IMG/VR virus record: IMGVR_UViG_3300017987_005482
Coordinates: 1-22,380 of that record
DNA from: a virus
Reading direction: 5' to 3' (one strand)
DNA length: 22,380 nt
This document shows positions 4,919 through 19,191 of the stretch, one piece after another. The position numbers and the translations under genes are program-made. Within the stretch, counting starts at the first letter, position 1, and every line of letters begins with the position of its first letter. The notes below the pieces were generated by a model. It worked only from the letters and a program-made list of their open reading frames with translations. It was not told where the DNA came from and made no database searches.

Positions 4919-7759
4919 TTGGGACTTTTTGATTTTCTTTCTGGAGGAGCAAAAAATACTGGAACATCTGGCATGGTGAAAGCACCAGCATCTCTTAATC
5001 CACAGACCGACCCATATTCAGAAAGCGGGGGGGTTGTCACCAAAACCATTTTGTCGAGATTCCCTCTCCCTCCCCGCTATCTCAAATTCCTGGCATTTAA
5101 CGTCGATATTCTCCGAATCGCAATCCAGCATCTGAAAAACGAAATCTTCATCACAGGGATTGAAATCGAGGAAGCGTACGACGTAAAATGTACTAATCCT
5201 GACTGTGAGAAGAAATTTGAATACACAGCTAAAACGTGTGACGTCTGCGGTTCGGAGGTTACACAACCTCTCTGGGCTGAGCGGAAAAACCTTGAGAAAA
5301 TCTATTCCAGAATAAATTCACTGGGGCAATCACTTCCTGAAGTCATAAAGGAATTCGAGGAGAACCTCGAAATCTATGATAATGGGATGTTGTATGTCAA
5401 GCAAGAATACACAATCAACAAGACCGACGGCTCAATCATTGGCAGGATTCCACAGGAAACCATGTCTGTCTCTCCCGTGAACTTCGAGAAGAACCTTTCT
5501 GATACTGGTATAATTGGTGCTGCCCTTGATGGAACTCCAATTCGTATTTGCCTTCGACATCGTGAATCAACCACACCGAGCATGACTTGTAAGATTGACG
5601 GGTGTGGCTGGAAAACATATCCAGTCGAATTCACAGAGACATTCGGCAAGAGTCGCAATCATTACATTCCAGGGGAGATAATCCACAAAACCAAATATAC
5701 CTCCACCAAGCGCATGGGCTACTCCCCTATCTATGCCATCTGGAAGAAACTCTTTGCCCTCTGGTATCTTGATGAGCAGCAGATGAAGCAATTCCAGGAA
5801 GGACGCCCACCTAAAGGTTTCTTGGTCCTCAACATGGGCCAGAGCCTGCTGGATTCACTCATCAAGAAAGTCAAGAATATCTTGCGGGAGAACCCCAACA
5901 CAATTCCATTCCTTGCAGTTGAGGCCCAGGGCAAGAAGATGGCCGAGTTCATCAATGTCTCTGGTACTTCATCAGACCAGCAGCTGCTTGAGCATCGTGA
6001 TGCAATCCGCCGAATGGTGGCTGCATTGTACGGAGTCATGCCTATTTTCTCGGGTGATATCAGTACGGGGGGTGGCCTAAACAATGAAAGTCAACAGGTT
6101 GTCGTCACCAATGATGCGGTGAAGCGTGGCCAGGAACTTCTGAACAGTACCATGGTTGAGCTGCTCTCGCTTTATGGAATCGATGGATGGCTTGCAGTTA
6201 TCCAGCCAAATGAAGAGAAAGACGAAATGCGTGAATTGCAGATTGAGCAGATGAAGATTCAGAATGCCCAAGTCTTGCAAAGCATGGGCTTTGACATTTC
6301 CACAAATGAGCAGGGCGAGTTCGAACATTCTGAAAAACCAGTTCGTGAACCAACTGGCACCAAAAGCGGAGGTTTTGGGGAATCGCCTTTGATTAGCAAA
6401 GAAAAGCTCTTTGGTGAAGGCAACACAATCGAGAAAGCTGACAAGGTATATCTAAAGCCTGGAGAAAAACCACCTCATGGTGAGCCAGTTCATGAAGGTG
6501 AGAAGGGCGGACATTATTATTTCCCATCTGGCTCTGGAACTCCTTCTGAAAAGAAACCAACAACTGAAAAAAAAAAGTTGTCTGACCTCTTGAAAGAGGC
6601 AGGGGTTGGTTTTGAGGATATTCTGAGTGACAATACTGAAGCTCGCAAGAAGCTTAACCTGGCATTTGAACAGTCTGGAGTGAAAATCCAGATGGGTGAT
6701 TCTGAGGATGAGATGAAAGAGAAGAACTATGCCAGAGCAAATCTTGTTCTTGACACATTTCCAACAGAGATAAAGAGCGCAGTGAATGAATTGAAAAAAG
6801 CATACTCCAGGGATGAAGTTGCTGCATATAGGAGGGGCAACAATATCTCATTTTTCCTTGCTGGCCAGCTTGGGACTTACATAAGGTTTCAGACTCCTGA
6901 GCGGCGGATTGCGTTTGCTGAAAAACTGAAAGGTCTTCTTGGTGGTGATGTCCGTGAAACAAATAAAGCTCTTAAGTACATTGGAATCAAGGAGAGGGTC
7001 AAGTCTTCTGGAATCAGGCAGACTGCGAAGGTAAAAACCCGTGAAGAGATAAATAACTCCCTGAAAGAAGTGACCCATGGTGGAGTCACATATAAGATAA
7101 GCCCAACGTACATCAAAAACTCAAAATCATTCAAGAATGAGGCGGCTCTGAAGAAAACATTTGATTCTGTCATTGATACTCTACCACCAAAGGCCAGGGA
7201 AGTAATTCAGAAAGGTGGCACGCAGGTGCATTTCATTACAAGGCCAGAGGCGAAGAAAATAACTGGGGCAACGCTGTCAAGCAGGTCGCTTGGATATTAT
7301 GTTCGGAATACGAACCAGGTTTATATATTCCCAGAGAAATCTGACAGAATTGAATATACCATCAACACGAGTGAACTTTCTGAGGCAGGCTATTCTGCTG
7401 AAACAATCGAACGGCTTTCTTCAGATGCAAACATAGAATCCTGGAAGCGAACAGTGACTCACGAACTGGCACACGCTGTTGCGTATAATGAGGCAGGGTT
7501 TTCCTCAATGCAGAGCAAGTATGATGAGTACATCTTCTCGAAATATGAAGCTTACCAGCGCAGAGAGATGCTTGATGATGATTTCAAAACAAACTACATC
7601 TCAGGGTATGCAAAGACCTCACCATCAGAAGATTTTGCTGAGACGTTTGCTTATTACGCTAATTACAAGAAGGATGTTGATGAGTTGATTGAGAAGGATT
7701 TGATATTTGGCAAAATGCTCAAAGACAAATTCATTTGGATGAGGGATAATCTATGGTGA
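4919..7759 (+). CDS. Portal protein fused to a C-terminal HExxH zinc metallopeptidase
   Basis: At 946 residues this is about twice a usual portal. Residues 1 to about 470 match portal proteins in layout and context (terL upstream, MuF-like gene downstream; LPPRYLKFLAFNVDILRIAI, then PEVIKEFEENLEIYDNG, then IRRMVAALYGVMPIF). Two cysteine clusters sit inside the portal part: C91-x4-C96-x10-C107-x2-C110, and C211-x2-H214-x9-C224-x4-C229, both zinc-ribbon-like. A linker (about 505-545) carries YLKPGEKPPHGEPVHEGEKG followed by GHYYF. A helical region follows, then a zincin domain (about 725-946): THELAHAV with H848, E849 and H852, and a downstream SEDFAETFAYY (E904 or E908 as third ligand), resembling the anthrax-lethal-factor-like peptidase layout. 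TTG 4919 follows GAGGTG at about 4908-4913. The C-terminal part could be a peptidase carried in the virion or ejected; that is inference. Confidence 0.88.
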   Translation: MGLFDFLSGGAKNTGTSGMVKAPASLNPQTDPYSESGGVVTKTILSRFPLPPRYLKFLAFNVDILRIAIQHLKNEIFITGIEIEEAYDVKCTNPDCEKKFEYTAKTCDVCGSEVTQPLWAERKNLEKIYSRINSLGQSLPEVIKEFEENLEIYDNGMLYVKQEYTINKTDGSIIGRIPQETMSVSPVNFEKNLSDTGIIGAALDGTPIRICLRHRESTTPSMTCKIDGCGWKTYPVEFTETFGKSRNHYIPGEIIHKTKYTSTKRMGYSPIYAIWKKLFALWYLDEQQMKQFQEGRPPKGFLVLNMGQSLLDSLIKKVKNILRENPNTIPFLAVEAQGKKMAEFINVSGTSSDQQLLEHRDAIRRMVAALYGVMPIFSGDISTGGGLNNESQQVVVTNDAVKRGQELLNSTMVELLSLYGIDGWLAVIQPNEEKDEMRELQIEQMKIQNAQVLQSMGFDISTNEQGEFEHSEKPVREPTGTKSGGFGESPLISKEKLFGEGNTIEKADKVYLKPGEKPPHGEPVHEGEKGGHYYFPSGSGTPSEKKPTTEKKKLSDLLKEAGVGFEDILSDNTEARKKLNLAFEQSGVKIQMGDSEDEMKEKNYARANLVLDTFPTEIKSAVNELKKAYSRDEVAAYRRGNNISFFLAGQLGTYIRFQTPERRIAFAEKLKGLLGGDVRETNKALKYIGIKERVKSSGIRQTAKVKTREEINNSLKEVTHGGVTYKISPTYIKNSKSFKNEAALKKTFDSVIDTLPPKAREVIQKGGTQVHFITRPEAKKITGATLSSRSLGYYVRNTNQVYIFPEKSDRIEYTINTSELSEAGYSAETIERLSSDANIESWKRTVTHELAHAVAYNEAGFSSMQSKYDEYIFSKYEAYQRREMLDDDFKTNYISGYAKTSPSEDFAETFAYYANYKKDVDELIEKDLIFGKMLKDKFIWMRDNLW

Positions 7760-9708: not shown

Positions 9709-9900
9709 ATGAAAGTGATTGTGAAGAATGTTTTTAGGAAGGATTTGAAGCTTCTTGACTTCGGCTCTGTTGAGGTCAAGGCAGGGGGAACTGTTGAGGT
9801 CGAAGCAACCGAGCAACAGATTCAGGAGATTAAGAACACTCCAAGGCTGGAACTTGTTTCTGCGCCTGAGAAGAAAAAGAAAAAAGGTGATGAAAAATGA
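9709..9900 (+). CDS. Small conserved-looking tail-module protein
   Basis: 63 residues: a short beta-rich body (MKVIVKNVFRKDLKLLDFGS, then a VEVKAGGTVEVEATEQQIQE-type strand-turn-helix) and a lysine-rich tail (KKKKKGDEK). Small proteins of this shape often lie just before the tail tube gene in tailed viruses; their function is mostly unknown. ATG 9709 is chosen over the longer frame because AGGTGG at 9699-9704 sits four bases before it. Its stop overlaps the tube gene start (ATGA). The end of this gene also holds the strong SD of the tube gene, so the A-rich C-terminal codons are partly constrained. Confidence 0.72.
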   Translation: MKVIVKNVFRKDLKLLDFGSVEVKAGGTVEVEATEQQIQEIKNTPRLELVSAPEKKKKKGDEK

Positions 9901-10829
9901 CATACGCACTTCCGACGATATCATATGTGCAATGGGGAAAAGAGGCGAGCTATCCAGATGAGACAAGCAACTCCGAGCCTGCGACAACCTGCGATGAGGA
10001 TTTCTGGGAGGTCCAGAGCATCAACGACTCGCAGAAGAACAACTTGATTAAGTTGTACCAGCTCACTGGCGGGCGAGATGTCAATTCTGTTGTTAATGGG
10101 CGCTTTGATGCGAACCTGAAAGTAGAATGCAACCTGACCACAGATGATGCACCATGGGAGCTTATCATCGGCAGCCTTGCAGCTGGTACTGCAACGCCAA
10201 CGAATACCCTTCCAAGCTTTGCTGTTGAAATTGGGTACAAAGATTATTCTGGCAGCTTGAAGAGAGCCAAATTCCACGGGTGCAAAATCAACTCGGCAGC
10301 TCTCAGTTATAATAAGAAGGGCGAGCCAGTGAAAGTGTCTTTGGACATCCTCACTCAGAGAGTATGGATTACAGATGTTCTTCAGACCCCGACAGCTCCA
10401 ACTGATGTACCACTCACAGACTTTGAGTGCTCATTGGAACTTCCAAATGCATCGGCACTTACAGATGTGCAGAGTTTCAGCACCACGATTGCACATAATC
10501 TTGTTGAGCAGTCTGATAACCGTGCCAGATTCAAGGCGGACTTGATAACTGGGAAACGGGACTACACCCATGATTTCAGCCTGTACTTCAATGGTACTAC
10601 ACGGCTTGAGAATTTCCTTGGGAATGCGGGATATGCTGTGGATGGCGTCACACCTGATTCAGAGGCTACCATGGAACTGACAATTACAAAGGGAGGAAAT
10701 ACGGTAGTGATTCTTTGGGGGGTTACATACTTCGAGGATTTCAGTGCACCTCTTGACATTGGCGGAGACCTTGTTGTCCAGAAATTCACAGGGTTCTCCA
10801 AGACAATGACCAGCGTGGTGGTTTCTTAA
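9897..10829 (+). CDS. Major tail tube protein
   Basis: A 310-residue beta-rich protein just before two chaperone frames and the tape measure, the fixed place of the tail tube subunit. Features include an N-terminal PTISYVQWGKEASYP, a middle FAVEIGYKDYSGSLKRAKFH plus GCKINSAALSYNKKGEPVKV, and a C-terminal strand series ending VVQKFTGFSKTMTSVVVS. The pattern SFSTTIAHNLVEQSDNRARF followed by DFSLYFNG is typical of tube proteins of the phage_tail_3 type. Expression is likely high: the start ATG 9897 lies five bases after a full AAGGTGAT. The same 16-base start region, AAGGTGATGAAAAATG, recurs before the gene at 19560. Confidence 0.82.
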   Translation: MTYALPTISYVQWGKEASYPDETSNSEPATTCDEDFWEVQSINDSQKNNLIKLYQLTGGRDVNSVVNGRFDANLKVECNLTTDDAPWELIIGSLAAGTATPTNTLPSFAVEIGYKDYSGSLKRAKFHGCKINSAALSYNKKGEPVKVSLDILTQRVWITDVLQTPTAPTDVPLTDFECSLELPNASALTDVQSFSTTIAHNLVEQSDNRARFKADLITGKRDYTHDFSLYFNGTTRLENFLGNAGYAVDGVTPDSEATMELTITKGGNTVVILWGVTYFEDFSAPLDIGGDLVVQKFTGFSKTMTSVVVS

Positions 10830-11161
10830 TGAGAGAAATCTCTGTCGATGTTCCAGAGTCTGAATTCACTGTGAAATTCGGCGAGCATAAGATGGTCTTC
10901 ATGAGAATGAGTCCGACCAAGCTCAAAGAATTCCAGAAGAAATTCAAGCATCTCAAAGTTGGTGTGAAGGATGATTTGGTCGAGATTTCCGATGAGGAAG
11001 CTGAAAAGCGCATAGATGATATGTATGCGATGATTGAATTCCTCGTCACTGACACCACGCTCAGCATCTCTGAGCTGAAGAATTATCCAACTGCCGCCCT
11101 GGAACCACTCTTGAGAGTGGTCCTTGAAGAGCAGGGACTCGGAGTGGATAAAAAAAAATAA
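10829..11161 (+). CDS. Tail assembly chaperone, upstream (G-like) frame
   Basis: 110 residues between tube and tape measure. It starts with a strand series (ISVDVPESEFTVKFGEHKMV) then becomes helical (LKEFQKKFKHL, EKRIDDMYAMIEFLV). This is the lambda gpG position; such chaperones coat the tape measure during tail assembly. Translation probably starts by reinitiation: the tube stop TAA and ATG 10829 share a base. The gene ends GTG-GAT-A9-TAA. The nine-A run (11150-11158) is a slippery site that puts a fraction of ribosomes into the -1 frame, which continues without a stop into the next ORF. The 0-frame product is the short form; the fusion would have about 187 residues. Confidence 0.78.
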   Translation: MREISVDVPESEFTVKFGEHKMVFMRMSPTKLKEFQKKFKHLKVGVKDDLVEISDEEAEKRIDDMYAMIEFLVTDTTLSISELKNYPTAALEPLLRVVLEEQGLGVDKKK

Positions 11162-11183
11162 TACTTAACCGACTGATTGTCGG
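11150..11183 (+). promoter_or_regulatory. Programmed -1 frameshift signal (A9 slip run plus hairpin)
   Basis: A9 at 11150-11158 precedes the 0-frame TAA. Slipping back one base gives ATA-ATA-CTT-AAC, in frame with the following ORF. Ten bases after the run, CCGAC-TGATT-GTCGG (11169-11183) forms a five-base-pair hairpin, a typical downstream stimulator. Confidence 0.75.
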
Positions 11184-11391
11184 GGAAAGAATGATGGAGG
11201 AGGATGCGATGGATGTGTTGGTTGCGCAGGCGAGTTTGCTGCTTAATCAGCCCCCATCGGTTGTCCGAAAACAGACTGTGCGTGACCTTGAGCTGGTCTT
11301 CACGGTGAAAGAGGCATATGCGGAACTGGAGAAACAGGAGATGGACAAGAACAAGAGCGGTGGGAAATCTGTGTTGAACAAGAGGAAATAA
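11158..11391 (+). CDS. Tail assembly chaperone, downstream (T-like) extension reached by -1 frameshift
   Basis: Read in the -1 frame from the slip site, this segment encodes 77 residues (IILNRLIVGERMMEEDAMDV, then LVAQASLLLNQPPSVVRKQT and a charged, lysine-rich end). It forms the C-terminal part of a G-T-like fusion that recruits the tape measure to the tube. A free-standing start at ATG 11191 is possible, but its SD is weak and the frame is open back to the A9 run with plausible protein sequence, which favours frameshifting. The stop is one base before the tape measure ATG. The small size and helical content suit a chaperone domain. Confidence 0.7.
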   Translation: MILNRLIVGERMMEEDAMDVLVAQASLLLNQPPSVVRKQTVRDLELVFTVKEAYAELEKQEMDKNKSGGKSVLNKRK

Positions 11392-11392
11392 A

Positions 11393-12706
11393 ATGGCAGA
11401 AAACAAAATGATTGTCGAGGTTGTCGATGGGGGGCTTGGCGGAGGTACAGGTGCAGCTGGCAAGTCTCAGGAAAAGACAGCCGAAAACACTGGGAAAACT
11501 GCCGTCCTCATGGGTGCCACAGCTGGGGCGACGATGAAGCTCCTGGACATAATCCTGAAGCTGGTACCACTTGGGGATATCCTTGAATCCGGCTTTAGCG
11601 GAATCGGCGCATCTCTTTCAGTCCTTGCCAAAGTTCTCGGTCTCATAGTCCGCCCACTTGTTGATTTGTTCATCCCCGCAGTCATGGGGCTTGTCGTGCT
11701 TCTCATGCCGTTCATAACCCTGATGAATGCGGTGTTTAGGCCGCTGATGATGGTCATGATGGTTGCATTTGCCAAGTTCAACGAGAAGCTGATGCCCCTC
11801 ATGGCACAGTATATGCCCATGCTCCTGGAAATCGCATCAGGGGTCGGTGAGTTCGCTGCTGGAATGCTCCAATGGTGGTTCGAGTTCGGCGAGAAACTTT
11901 TCACTGGTGACTTCGGAGGGGCACTGGATATGCTTATCAATCTTGGTACCAGCATTATGATGGGCCTGATTGAAGGAACACTTGCTGCGATTCCATATAT
12001 AGAAGACCTTGTTGCTGGAATTTGGGGAAACATCAAAGACATCGAAATCGGCGGCCAGTCAATCGAAGATTGGGTGAGTGATATCCTGGCACCATTGCAG
12101 GCAATGTGGGATTTCATAACTGGAATGTTCAGCGGGGAGGGTGACAATCCTATTATCAATTTCTTCCAGAACATGAAGGATGCAGCTGCACAGATTGTAT
12201 CCTCGCTTCTTGTGATTGTTGTTGCAGTCCTAAGTTCTCTTATGACAACCCTGACTGGAAAGATATTCCCAGAGATAAAAACAGCCCTGATAGCTCTTGT
12301 TGAGCTTCTTAAGTTCAAATTCATTGAGGTCATATATTCCCTGATTGCAACAACTGCTCGGGGTCTTGCAGAGTTCATAGAAAACGTGAGGGATGCGCTA
12401 ATCAGCATTGCAAATGCGTATAACGAGGTTGCAAGCATAGTTCCAGGGATGCAGACAATTGACACTGGTGCGATAAGCGCCGCTGCATCTGCCGCTACGA
12501 AGCCACTTTATGATATTGCATACAGCGCCGAGACCACTGCTGGAACGGCAGCTGCTCGTGGTGGGGAGGTTGTCAGCAGCATAACCGTGAATGTCAATGG
12601 AGATGTCTCTGGTGAGGAGCTGGTGAACAAGATTAAGGAGAACCTGGAGAGGTACCAAGGGACGATGTTGGACCAAAACGGGATTTCTCAGGGGTTAGTG
12701 GGGTGA
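11393..12706 (+). CDS. Tape measure protein (short)
   Basis: 437 residues, directly behind the chaperones. It is strongly hydrophobic and helical with several long apolar stretches (LVDLFIPAVMGLVVLLMPFI, AFRPLMMVMMVAFAKF-like region, AAQIVSSLLVIVVAVLSSLM), a glycine-rich start (VVDGGLGGGTGAAG) and a C-terminal VVSSITVNVNGDVSGEELVN followed by a helix, an ending typical of archaeal and other tape measures. The protein sets tail length and is ejected with the DNA. At about 1.5 angstrom per residue it would predict a tail of only about 65 nm. SD AGAGGAAA precedes ATG 11393. The membrane-like segments fit a role in crossing the host envelope. Confidence 0.85.
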   Translation: MAENKMIVEVVDGGLGGGTGAAGKSQEKTAENTGKTAVLMGATAGATMKLLDIILKLVPLGDILESGFSGIGASLSVLAKVLGLIVRPLVDLFIPAVMGLVVLLMPFITLMNAVFRPLMMVMMVAFAKFNEKLMPLMAQYMPMLLEIASGVGEFAAGMLQWWFEFGEKLFTGDFGGALDMLINLGTSIMMGLIEGTLAAIPYIEDLVAGIWGNIKDIEIGGQSIEDWVSDILAPLQAMWDFITGMFSGEGDNPIINFFQNMKDAAAQIVSSLLVIVVAVLSSLMTTLTGKIFPEIKTALIALVELLKFKFIEVIYSLIATTARGLAEFIENVRDALISIANAYNEVASIVPGMQTIDTGAISAAASAATKPLYDIAYSAETTAGTAAARGGEVVSSITVNVNGDVSGEELVNKIKENLERYQGTMLDQNGISQGLVG

Positions 12707-17122: not shown

Positions 17123-18064
17123 ATGAAGATTATTGACCATGATAAGCGAATTTTTGAGGGTATCGCCCACGTTGAAGCCAGAGACAAAGACGGCGAGATA
17201 ATCAAGGCCGATGATGTTCTTCAGCAGATGTATGACTACTCCGACATAGGAGGGGCGATTAATGACACTCACACAAACAAGGCAGTTGGAAAACTGCTCA
17301 ACTGGATGTATGAGGTTGTTGATGGAACCCCAGCTATAAAGATAGTCGGGAAGATTCATGACAATTACAAGCTCCACGACGAAATCTGGCAGAAGATGAA
17401 AGATGGCGTTTATAAAGGCTTGAGCATCGGTGCCAAAGGGACCAAGTACCCCGATGGTACTGTTGATGTTGATGATGGGGTCTTTGAGATTTCTGTTTGT
17501 GAATCTCCGAGAAACCCAAAGGCGCTGTTGACTGGTATTTCTATCGCCAAAGGCGAAAGCGGTTCTCCATGTGAAAAAGACAAGGATGCAGCTTGCGACA
17601 CTCCTGGAAGCGAGAAAGAAAAAATAGAGAAAGGTGATGTTATGGAAGAAGAGAAGAAAGAAGAAGTAATTGAAAAACAGGAACCTCCGACTCCCGCTCC
17701 AGTAGAAGAAGTCAAGGAGGAAGTTGCTGAGGAAGTGACAGAGGAAGTTACCTTGCAGAAGGTACTTGAAGCTGTTGCAGAACTTTCGGCAAAGGTTTCC
17801 GCTCTCCAGGAGCAGGTTGGTTCAGTTCCAGGAGTTGGAGCTGAGAAGGCAGAGGAAGAGAAGAAAGAAGAAGAACCTCCAGCCGAACCTGAAGAGGAGA
17901 AAGAGGAAATGGCAGAAACTGTCAAGAAGGAAGTAGAGAAAGCACTGAAGGCTAATATCGCAAAGGCAACGACCCCTAATCCATCAACAAAAGAAGAGGA
18001 TGTTGAGGTGAACAAGGGTGGAAACACAGCGGCTGACATTGCTATGGGCAAGTGTACGCTCTAA
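17123..18064 (+). CDS. Prohead protease (XkdF-like) fused to a scaffold domain
   Basis: 313 residues. The first 155 resemble XkdF-type capsid maturation proteases: FEGIAHVEARDKDGEIIKAD, GAINDTHTNKAVGKLLNW (H50 a likely catalytic histidine), VGKIHDNYKLHDEIW, and DGVYKGLSIGAKG (S101 a likely catalytic serine), then a FEISVCESPRNPKA strand. From about 155 on, the chain is acidic low-complexity sequence (many EE/KK/VEE units) with a coiled-coil stretch TLQKVLEAVAELSAKVSALQ and a basic C-terminus (KKEVEKALKANIAKATTPNP), a scaffold layout. The protease would trim scaffold and capsid in the procapsid. ATG 17123 has no SD and is about 26 nt from a TATA-like box. An internal SD and ATG (17642) could yield the scaffold alone. 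Confidence 0.82.
   Translation: MKIIDHDKRIFEGIAHVEARDKDGEIIKADDVLQQMYDYSDIGGAINDTHTNKAVGKLLNWMYEVVDGTPAIKIVGKIHDNYKLHDEIWQKMKDGVYKGLSIGAKGTKYPDGTVDVDDGVFEISVCESPRNPKALLTGISIAKGESGSPCEKDKDAACDTPGSEKEKIEKGDVMEEEKKEEVIEKQEPPTPAPVEEVKEEVAEEVTEEVTLQKVLEAVAELSAKVSALQEQVGSVPGVGAEKAEEEKKEEEPPAEPEEEKEEMAETVKKEVEKALKANIAKATTPNPSTKEEDVEVNKGGNTAADIAMGKCTL
17642..18064 (+). CDS. Nested scaffold protein from an internal in-frame start
   Basis: Within the protease gene, AAAGGTGAT (17630-17638) stands three bases before ATG 17642 (codon 174, same frame). This would give a 140-residue acidic, coiled-coil protein lacking the protease domain. It parallels lambda, where the scaffold Nu3 starts inside protease gene C. 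The SD is as strong as those of the tail tube and 19560 genes, while the full-length protein has none, so scaffold should outnumber protease, as assembly requires. The proof would be the protein itself; the signal is sequence-only. Confidence 0.6.
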   Translation: MEEEKKEEVIEKQEPPTPAPVEEVKEEVAEEVTEEVTLQKVLEAVAELSAKVSALQEQVGSVPGVGAEKAEEEKKEEEPPAEPEEEKEEMAETVKKEVEKALKANIAKATTPNPSTKEEDVEVNKGGNTAADIAMGKCTL

Positions 18065-18096
18065 GTTACACAAAAAATAATATTGAGGTGTGAATT

Positions 18097-19191
18097 ATGA
18101 AATCGATTGAAAAAACAATTGAAGAATGGTATGGAGGTGTCGCATACGACATCAACAAGGCAGACGCTCCATTGCTTACATCAACCACTGGTTCGATGAA
18201 TGTTATTTATGGTGCATATGCTTTTGCACAGTACAACAACAACTCCATGGCACTTGGGTACCTTCCAAAGTTTGAAGCTCCTAAGTCAGGATGGAGGGTT
18301 ATGACTGCTATCGGTGGTACTGCTGGTGATGGTGGAGTTGCAGAGAACGGAGCAGTTCCAGATTCTATCAAACCAACAATTGCAGAGGTTTCTGCAAACC
18401 CGAAGGATGTGGCTCACCACTTCCAGGTTTCAACAAGAGACCTCCACCAGATTGGCAAGGATGATATGTTCGGTGGTGAAGATTTCTTCCTTAAATGGGA
18501 AGCAAACAAACACGCCAAAGGTATGAACGAGCAGATTCTGAAAAACGTTACCACAGTAGCTGGAAACAGCCTCGAGTCAATTGACCGTGTATGTTCAAGC
18601 TATGCAGAAGTAACAAACTGTGCAGATGTTCATGCAAACGACTCAGACATTTATGGTCAGGACAGAGATGCAGCTGCATCATGGGCTGATGCAAATGTCG
18701 ATGAGAATGCAGACGTTAACAGAGCTTTGACACTTGGCCTTATCAGGGACTTGAAGAGAGATTGTATCACCTATGCAGCCAACCCATCATTCTTCCTGAC
18801 TGGTCCAGACACACTTTCCCAGATTGAAGGTCTTGTTGAAACAACTACAAGATACACTCTTGGTCATGACAAGGTTGCTCCATCAGCAAACGGTCTTCAG
18901 ACCCAGGGTATCGAAGGTGGTGTTGAGGTTGCAAGCCTCTTTGGACTTCCAGTGGTTACTGATGCTGATGTAGTCGTGGATGGCTCAAGCAGGATTTACT
19001 GTCTTGATACACACACAGAGGCTGGAATTCCAACCCTTGGTCTTGGTATGTGGAAGAGAACTGAGATGTTCCAAAACAAGAACATTGCAATTTCAGATGT
19101 CCTCACCAACGACTATGTGTACTACACAAGCGCAGAGCTGTACTGCTTCAACTTCAGAAAGCAGGGTAAAATCAGAGATATCTCTGCTTAG
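18097..19191 (+). CDS. Major capsid protein (HK97-fold type)
   Basis: 364 residues directly after protease/scaffold. The layout suits an HK97-fold shell subunit: a helical N-terminus (KSIEKTIEEWYGGVAYDINK), a strand pair around SGWRVMTAIGGTAGDGGVAE, then VAHHFQVSTRDLHQIGKDD (the region often seen as the E-loop to spine-helix transition), a long helical middle (ALTLGLIRDLKRDCITYAAN-PSFFLTGP) and a C-terminal GVEVASLFGLPVVTDADVVV with IYCLDTHTEAGIPTLGLGMW. The N-arm is short, consistent with a separate scaffold. SD GAGGTG (18085-18090) is six bases from the start, and an oligo-T terminator follows, both fitting very high expression. Name given by context and general pattern. Confidence 0.85.
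   Translation: MKSIEKTIEEWYGGVAYDINKADAPLLTSTTGSMNVIYGAYAFAQYNNNSMALGYLPKFEAPKSGWRVMTAIGGTAGDGGVAENGAVPDSIKPTIAEVSANPKDVAHHFQVSTRDLHQIGKDDMFGGEDFFLKWEANKHAKGMNEQILKNVTTVAGNSLESIDRVCSSYAEVTNCADVHANDSDIYGQDRDAAASWADANVDENADVNRALTLGLIRDLKRDCITYAANPSFFLTGPDTLSQIEGLVETTTRYTLGHDKVAPSANGLQTQGIEGGVEVASLFGLPVVTDADVVVDGSSRIYCLDTHTEAGIPTLGLGMWKRTEMFQNKNIAISDVLTNDYVYYTSAELYCFNFRKQGKIRDISA

Follow-up and report, generated by a model that had tools for sequence, protein, structure and literature searches.

The question raised by this locus is whether a run of nine A's (A9) at the end of a short gene serves as a site of programmed -1 frameshifting, by which that gene, referred to here as G, would be fused with the next open frame, T, into a second tail chaperone. 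The locus lies in an IMG/VR virus record of 22.4 kb, the whole of which was analysed and is called the window below. Our best reading agrees with the original prediction of such a fusion: a genuine -1 ribosomal frameshift at the heptamer A_AAA_AAA, giving a G/GT-like pair of tail chaperones, is probable on the sequence evidence, with site and frame conserved in 37 related stretches of DNA.

Gene order and reading frames

The genes of the window are arranged in the order primase, TerL, portal, neck, tail tube, G, T, tape measure candidate, tail genes, protease and major capsid protein. The placement of the G/T pair between tube and tape measure, a point of the original prediction, is borne out by a Pfam tail-tube gene on its 5' side (E 7.8e-18) and by a tape-measure candidate with a weak match (E 4e-4) on its 3' side (Table 1). 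Elsewhere in the window, the portal is fused with a C-terminal putative zinc metallopeptidase domain (PF15890, PF15887) in a single ORF at 4919-7759, and the protease and major capsid genes (17123-19191) stand after the tail genes, while in HVTV-1 they stand before them.

Table 1. Coordinates of the G/T locus and its flanking genes in the window
Feature	Position	Strand	Basis and remarks
Tail tube protein gene	9897..10829	+	PF18906 Phage_tube_2, E 7.8e-18; weak match to HHTV-1 gp28
G, short tail assembly chaperone (candidate)	10829..11161	+	110 aa; between tube and tape measure; coding-like; weak phrog_1061 match
A9 run	11150..11158	+	Read from sequence
Slippery heptamer A_AAA_AAA	11152-11158	+	X_XXY_YYZ type, within the A9 run
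0-frame stop TAA of G	11159..11161	+	Adjoins the heptamer directly 3'
T, -1 frame extension	11158..11391	+	77 codons plus stop; open frame, coding-like codon usage, marginal T-profile score
5-bp hairpin CCGAC/GTCGG, possible though doubtful stimulator	11169..11183	+	Stem 11169-11173 with 11179-11183; fold; not common to relatives
GGAGGAGG then ATG 11209, possible internal start in T	11196..11211	+	Anti-SD duplex -10.1 kcal/mol
Tape measure protein candidate	11393..12706	+	437 aa; weak tape-measure matches to phrog_6090 (E 4e-4) and phrog_58 (E 1.5e-3)

The 3' end of G reads GTG GAT AAA AAA AAA TAA, so that the A9 run does lie directly 5' of the stop, as had been noted. It had also been described as a plain run in place of a classic heptamer, which was mistaken, given that it includes, in the frame of G, a canonical heptamer of the X_XXY_YYZ type. 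The genes of the window hold 28 in-frame sites of this type, and the one at the end of G is the sole one whose -1 frame extends far beyond the gene stop (230 nt vs 8 nt for the next best). Two runs of at least nine A's were seen in the window, compared with about 0.36 expected from its composition. The second of these, an A10 at 6567-6576, is in frame within the portal/metallopeptidase ORF, and a -1 slip on it would meet a stop within about five codons. The A9 is also present in an identical contig of 15.9 kb (L004), which is an incompletely independent check of the run because it may share the window's sample.

The original prediction that an open -1 frame joins the next ORF holds: this frame is open across the G stop from 11152, after a TAA at 11149-11151, to the stop at 11389-11391. 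Reading across the junction in -1 gives ...KKK-IILNRLIVGERMMEEDAMDVL..., and a two-tRNA slip would produce a G-T protein of about 187 aa with the junction ...KKK-IILN.... Codon usage in T resembles that of coding sequence in the -1 frame alone (log-likelihood +12.2, with negative values in the other frames).

The weak match of G to phrog_1061, a family of unknown function (E 3e-4), carries little weight because this family also gives weak matches in unrelated control genomes. No significant similarity was found between G of the window and known chaperones or G of its relatives, hhalign and blastp comparisons of the window's G and T with those of relatives did not rise above the level of shuffles or chance, and a PDB sequence search with G returned no matches. 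The T frames of the relatives have a common motif, and most of them score more than 10 bits when left out of the profile in turn (leave-one-out); T of the window scores a marginal 5.5 bits against their profile, a value attained by 9 of 1952 shuffles. An AlphaFold model of G alone (pLDDT 52) was set aside.

Conservation of the site among relatives

Relatives were collected through profile scans. A first scan with a capsid profile gave 41 loci, and the tail regions of these loci and of haloviruses had mostly G_GGA_AAC-type sites, with A_AAC_CCT in two. A portal-profile scan gave closer relatives than the capsid profile, five of them with tail regions. From a second scan with a capsid profile came 80 loci, which yielded 30 tail regions. 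Scans with one protein at a time (G, tube, TerL, capsid) returned the identical contig only, or nothing useful, and two contig-level genome scans found no relatives. A TerL alignment with vir519 was discarded as too distant. The G genes of L187 and L059, for which the script had chosen another ORF, were reassigned by hand, and near-duplicates (e.g., L203/L206 and L064/L065) remain in the set.

Of the 46 stretches from tube to tape measure, counting the window, 38 have both an open -1 T frame and an in-frame X_XXY_YYZ heptamer close to the stop of G. In the slippery frame, heptamers occur at 38 of 45 G ends vs 2 of 45 tube-gene ends, taken as control, with L214/L215 counted once in this comparison. 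The original prediction had asked whether relatives keep run and frame; 37 of them keep heptamer and open -1 frame, several as A8-A10 and some with the site abutting the stop. Across the 38 sites the heptamers are varied (A_AAA_AAA, A_AAA_AAC, A_AAA_AAG, G_GGA_AAC, G_GGT_TTT and A_AAC_CCT); the run length is 6-10 at the A-type sites of relatives, and a long homopolymer is absent at the other types. The closer, portal-found relatives have A8 (L102), A9 (L106), A10 (L105) and G_GGT_TTT (L103), and the G stop follows immediately after the heptamer also in L188, L201, L204, L205, L211, L212, L213 and L214.

In L104, the other portal-found relative, and in L196, T is in the -1 frame but a canonical heptamer is absent; their sequences CGT_TTT_ACG and CTT_TTT_TAG are candidate one-tRNA slip sites. 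A T-like frame lies +1 to G in L203, L206, L210 and HHTV-1 (L068), so that frameshifting apparently does not go in one direction throughout this group of viruses. Also among the stretches outside the 38, L194 is shortened and the tube gene of L195 has an internal TAG.

The original prediction included a hairpin ten bases downstream as part of the signal. The CCGAC/GTCGG stem is indeed present in the window, beginning 10 nt downstream of the A9 run, and it folds more stably than shuffled sequence when 32 nt are taken (z -3.3) but not when 62 nt are taken (z -0.9). It is not common to the relatives, where no conserved stimulatory structure was found (mean z -0.24 across 37 sites), and we rejected it as a general stimulator. 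A second hairpin of 7 bp, GTCCTTG/CAGGGAC (11120-11138), ends 13 nt upstream of the heptamer.

Proposed ribosomal slippage and its alternatives

We propose that most ribosomes translating G would terminate at its TAA, freeing the 110-aa chaperone. A smaller share, whose P and A sites would hold lysine tRNAs at the heptamer, would move back by one base, bypass the G stop and read T to its end, giving the G-T fusion. If the pair acts like lambda gpG/gpGT, the tape measure protein would be covered by G, and tail tube subunits would be brought in through the T part. What we observe is the site, the open frame, the gene order, the codon usage of T and the conservation of site and frame; the slip itself, its efficiency, the chaperone role and the archaeal host are inferred. 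In E. coli, A_AAA_AAA slips less than A_AAA_AAG (PMC5009743), which counts against frameshifting at this site.

Slippage of RNA polymerase on the A9 run could give the same protein, as some transcripts would then carry A10 and have G and T in one frame without any ribosomal slippage. Stretches of nine A's tend to cause slippage in many bacteria, and it has been proposed that IS elements exploit them, Sulfolobus solfataricus being one of the organisms named (PMC1088944); A8-A10 is also present in several relatives, and one A9 might serve both mechanisms. A long homopolymer is, however, not kept across the relatives: many have just six or seven A's at the site (A_AAA_AAC, A_AAA_AAG) and others lack a long homopolymer (G_GGA_AAC, G_GGT_TTT, A_AAC_CCT). 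Because of these sites we favor the ribosome over the polymerase, and consider polymerase slippage as the explanation unlikely. A mixed arrangement is just as unlikely in our view, one in which the ratio of G to G-T in the viruses with A8-A10 depends on polymerase slippage, by itself or combined with slippage of the ribosome, while their sisters rely on the ribosome alone at shorter sites; if true, interchangeable recoding mechanisms would yield one and the same protein pair.

Less probable still is a T gene of its own, with its start at ATG 11209 or 11191 and with no fusion produced. The sequence GGAGGAGG is located 5 nt upstream of ATG 11209, and its duplex matches in strength those at real genes of the window, yet it doubles as plain coding for part of Met-Glu-Glu-Asp. 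Furthermore, the -1 frame stays open across the G stop in relatives, with an in-frame heptamer, and many of their T frames have no ATG or GTG upstream of the conserved T motif. A sequencing or assembly error, by which a real A10 was read as A9 and a single G-T gene was split, is scarcely credible: homopolymers are error-prone and the second contig may be non-independent, but the A9 agrees in both contigs and relatives have equally split frames with non-homopolymer heptamers. Ribosomal -1 frameshifting is the reading that we retain.

Host and comparison with known systems

The host of the virus is probably archaeal, as originally suggested, because among 50,697 phage records its capsid and portal match solely archaeal viruses, namely Haloarcula viruses, a Methanofastidiosa virus and a Methanomassiliicoccales virus. 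The original prediction saw interest for recoding in archaea; this point is not new, as reviews already cover it for haloarchaeal tailed viruses (PMC5009743, PMC8211752), and the window is a further case of the known G/GT recoding type. By itself it is an ordinary member of the set of 38 sites. The conservation of the G/T site is now extended to dozens of uncultivated relatives, and the 38 varied heptamers in probable archaeal viruses are a ready panel for studying what archaeal ribosomes slip on.

Frameshifting of the -1 type between G and T has been reported for HVTV-1, HCTV-1, HCTV-2 and HCTV-5 (PMC5009743, PMC8211752), and the window shares with them the order tube, G, -1 T, tape measure. 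In the HVTV-1 and HCTV-1 records, a joined chaperone is annotated at the same position. The HVTV and HCTV viruses named here also have an X_XXY_YYZ heptamer close to the G stop, G_GGA_AAG in HVTV-1, G_GGA_AAC in HCTV-1 and A_AAA_AAC in HCTV-2 (PMC5009743), whereas the window has A_AAA_AAA immediately 5' of the stop. Hardycor1 has a G/GT arrangement with G_GGA_AAT (PMC7911831), and HF1-group viruses apparently use +1 (PMC7230728). The capsid and portal proteins of HVTV-1, HCTV-1, HCTV-2 and HCTV-5 are related to those of the window, while their G and T proteins give no confident alignment with the window's and their gene order around the capsid gene is different.

Lambda gpG/gpGT is likewise a two-product tail chaperone made via -1 slippage and encoded between the tube and tape measure genes (PMC5009743). 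In contrast to lambda, the relatives of the window are archaeal viruses, and the likeness drawn here is one of arrangement. The slippery sequences of the two differ as well.

A cellular parallel in terms of the heptamer comes from fucA1 of the archaeon Saccharolobus solfataricus, in which the likewise A-rich A-AAA-AAT with a putative stem-loop gives ~10% -1 frameshifting in vitro with S. solfataricus (PMC8211752). Unlike the window's site, it belongs to a cellular enzyme gene and not to a virus tail gene, and its fusion product is the functional enzyme. According to a 2021 review, just one archaeal -1 frameshift had been shown experimentally, and the viral cases listed there were few and haloarchaeal (PMC8211752).
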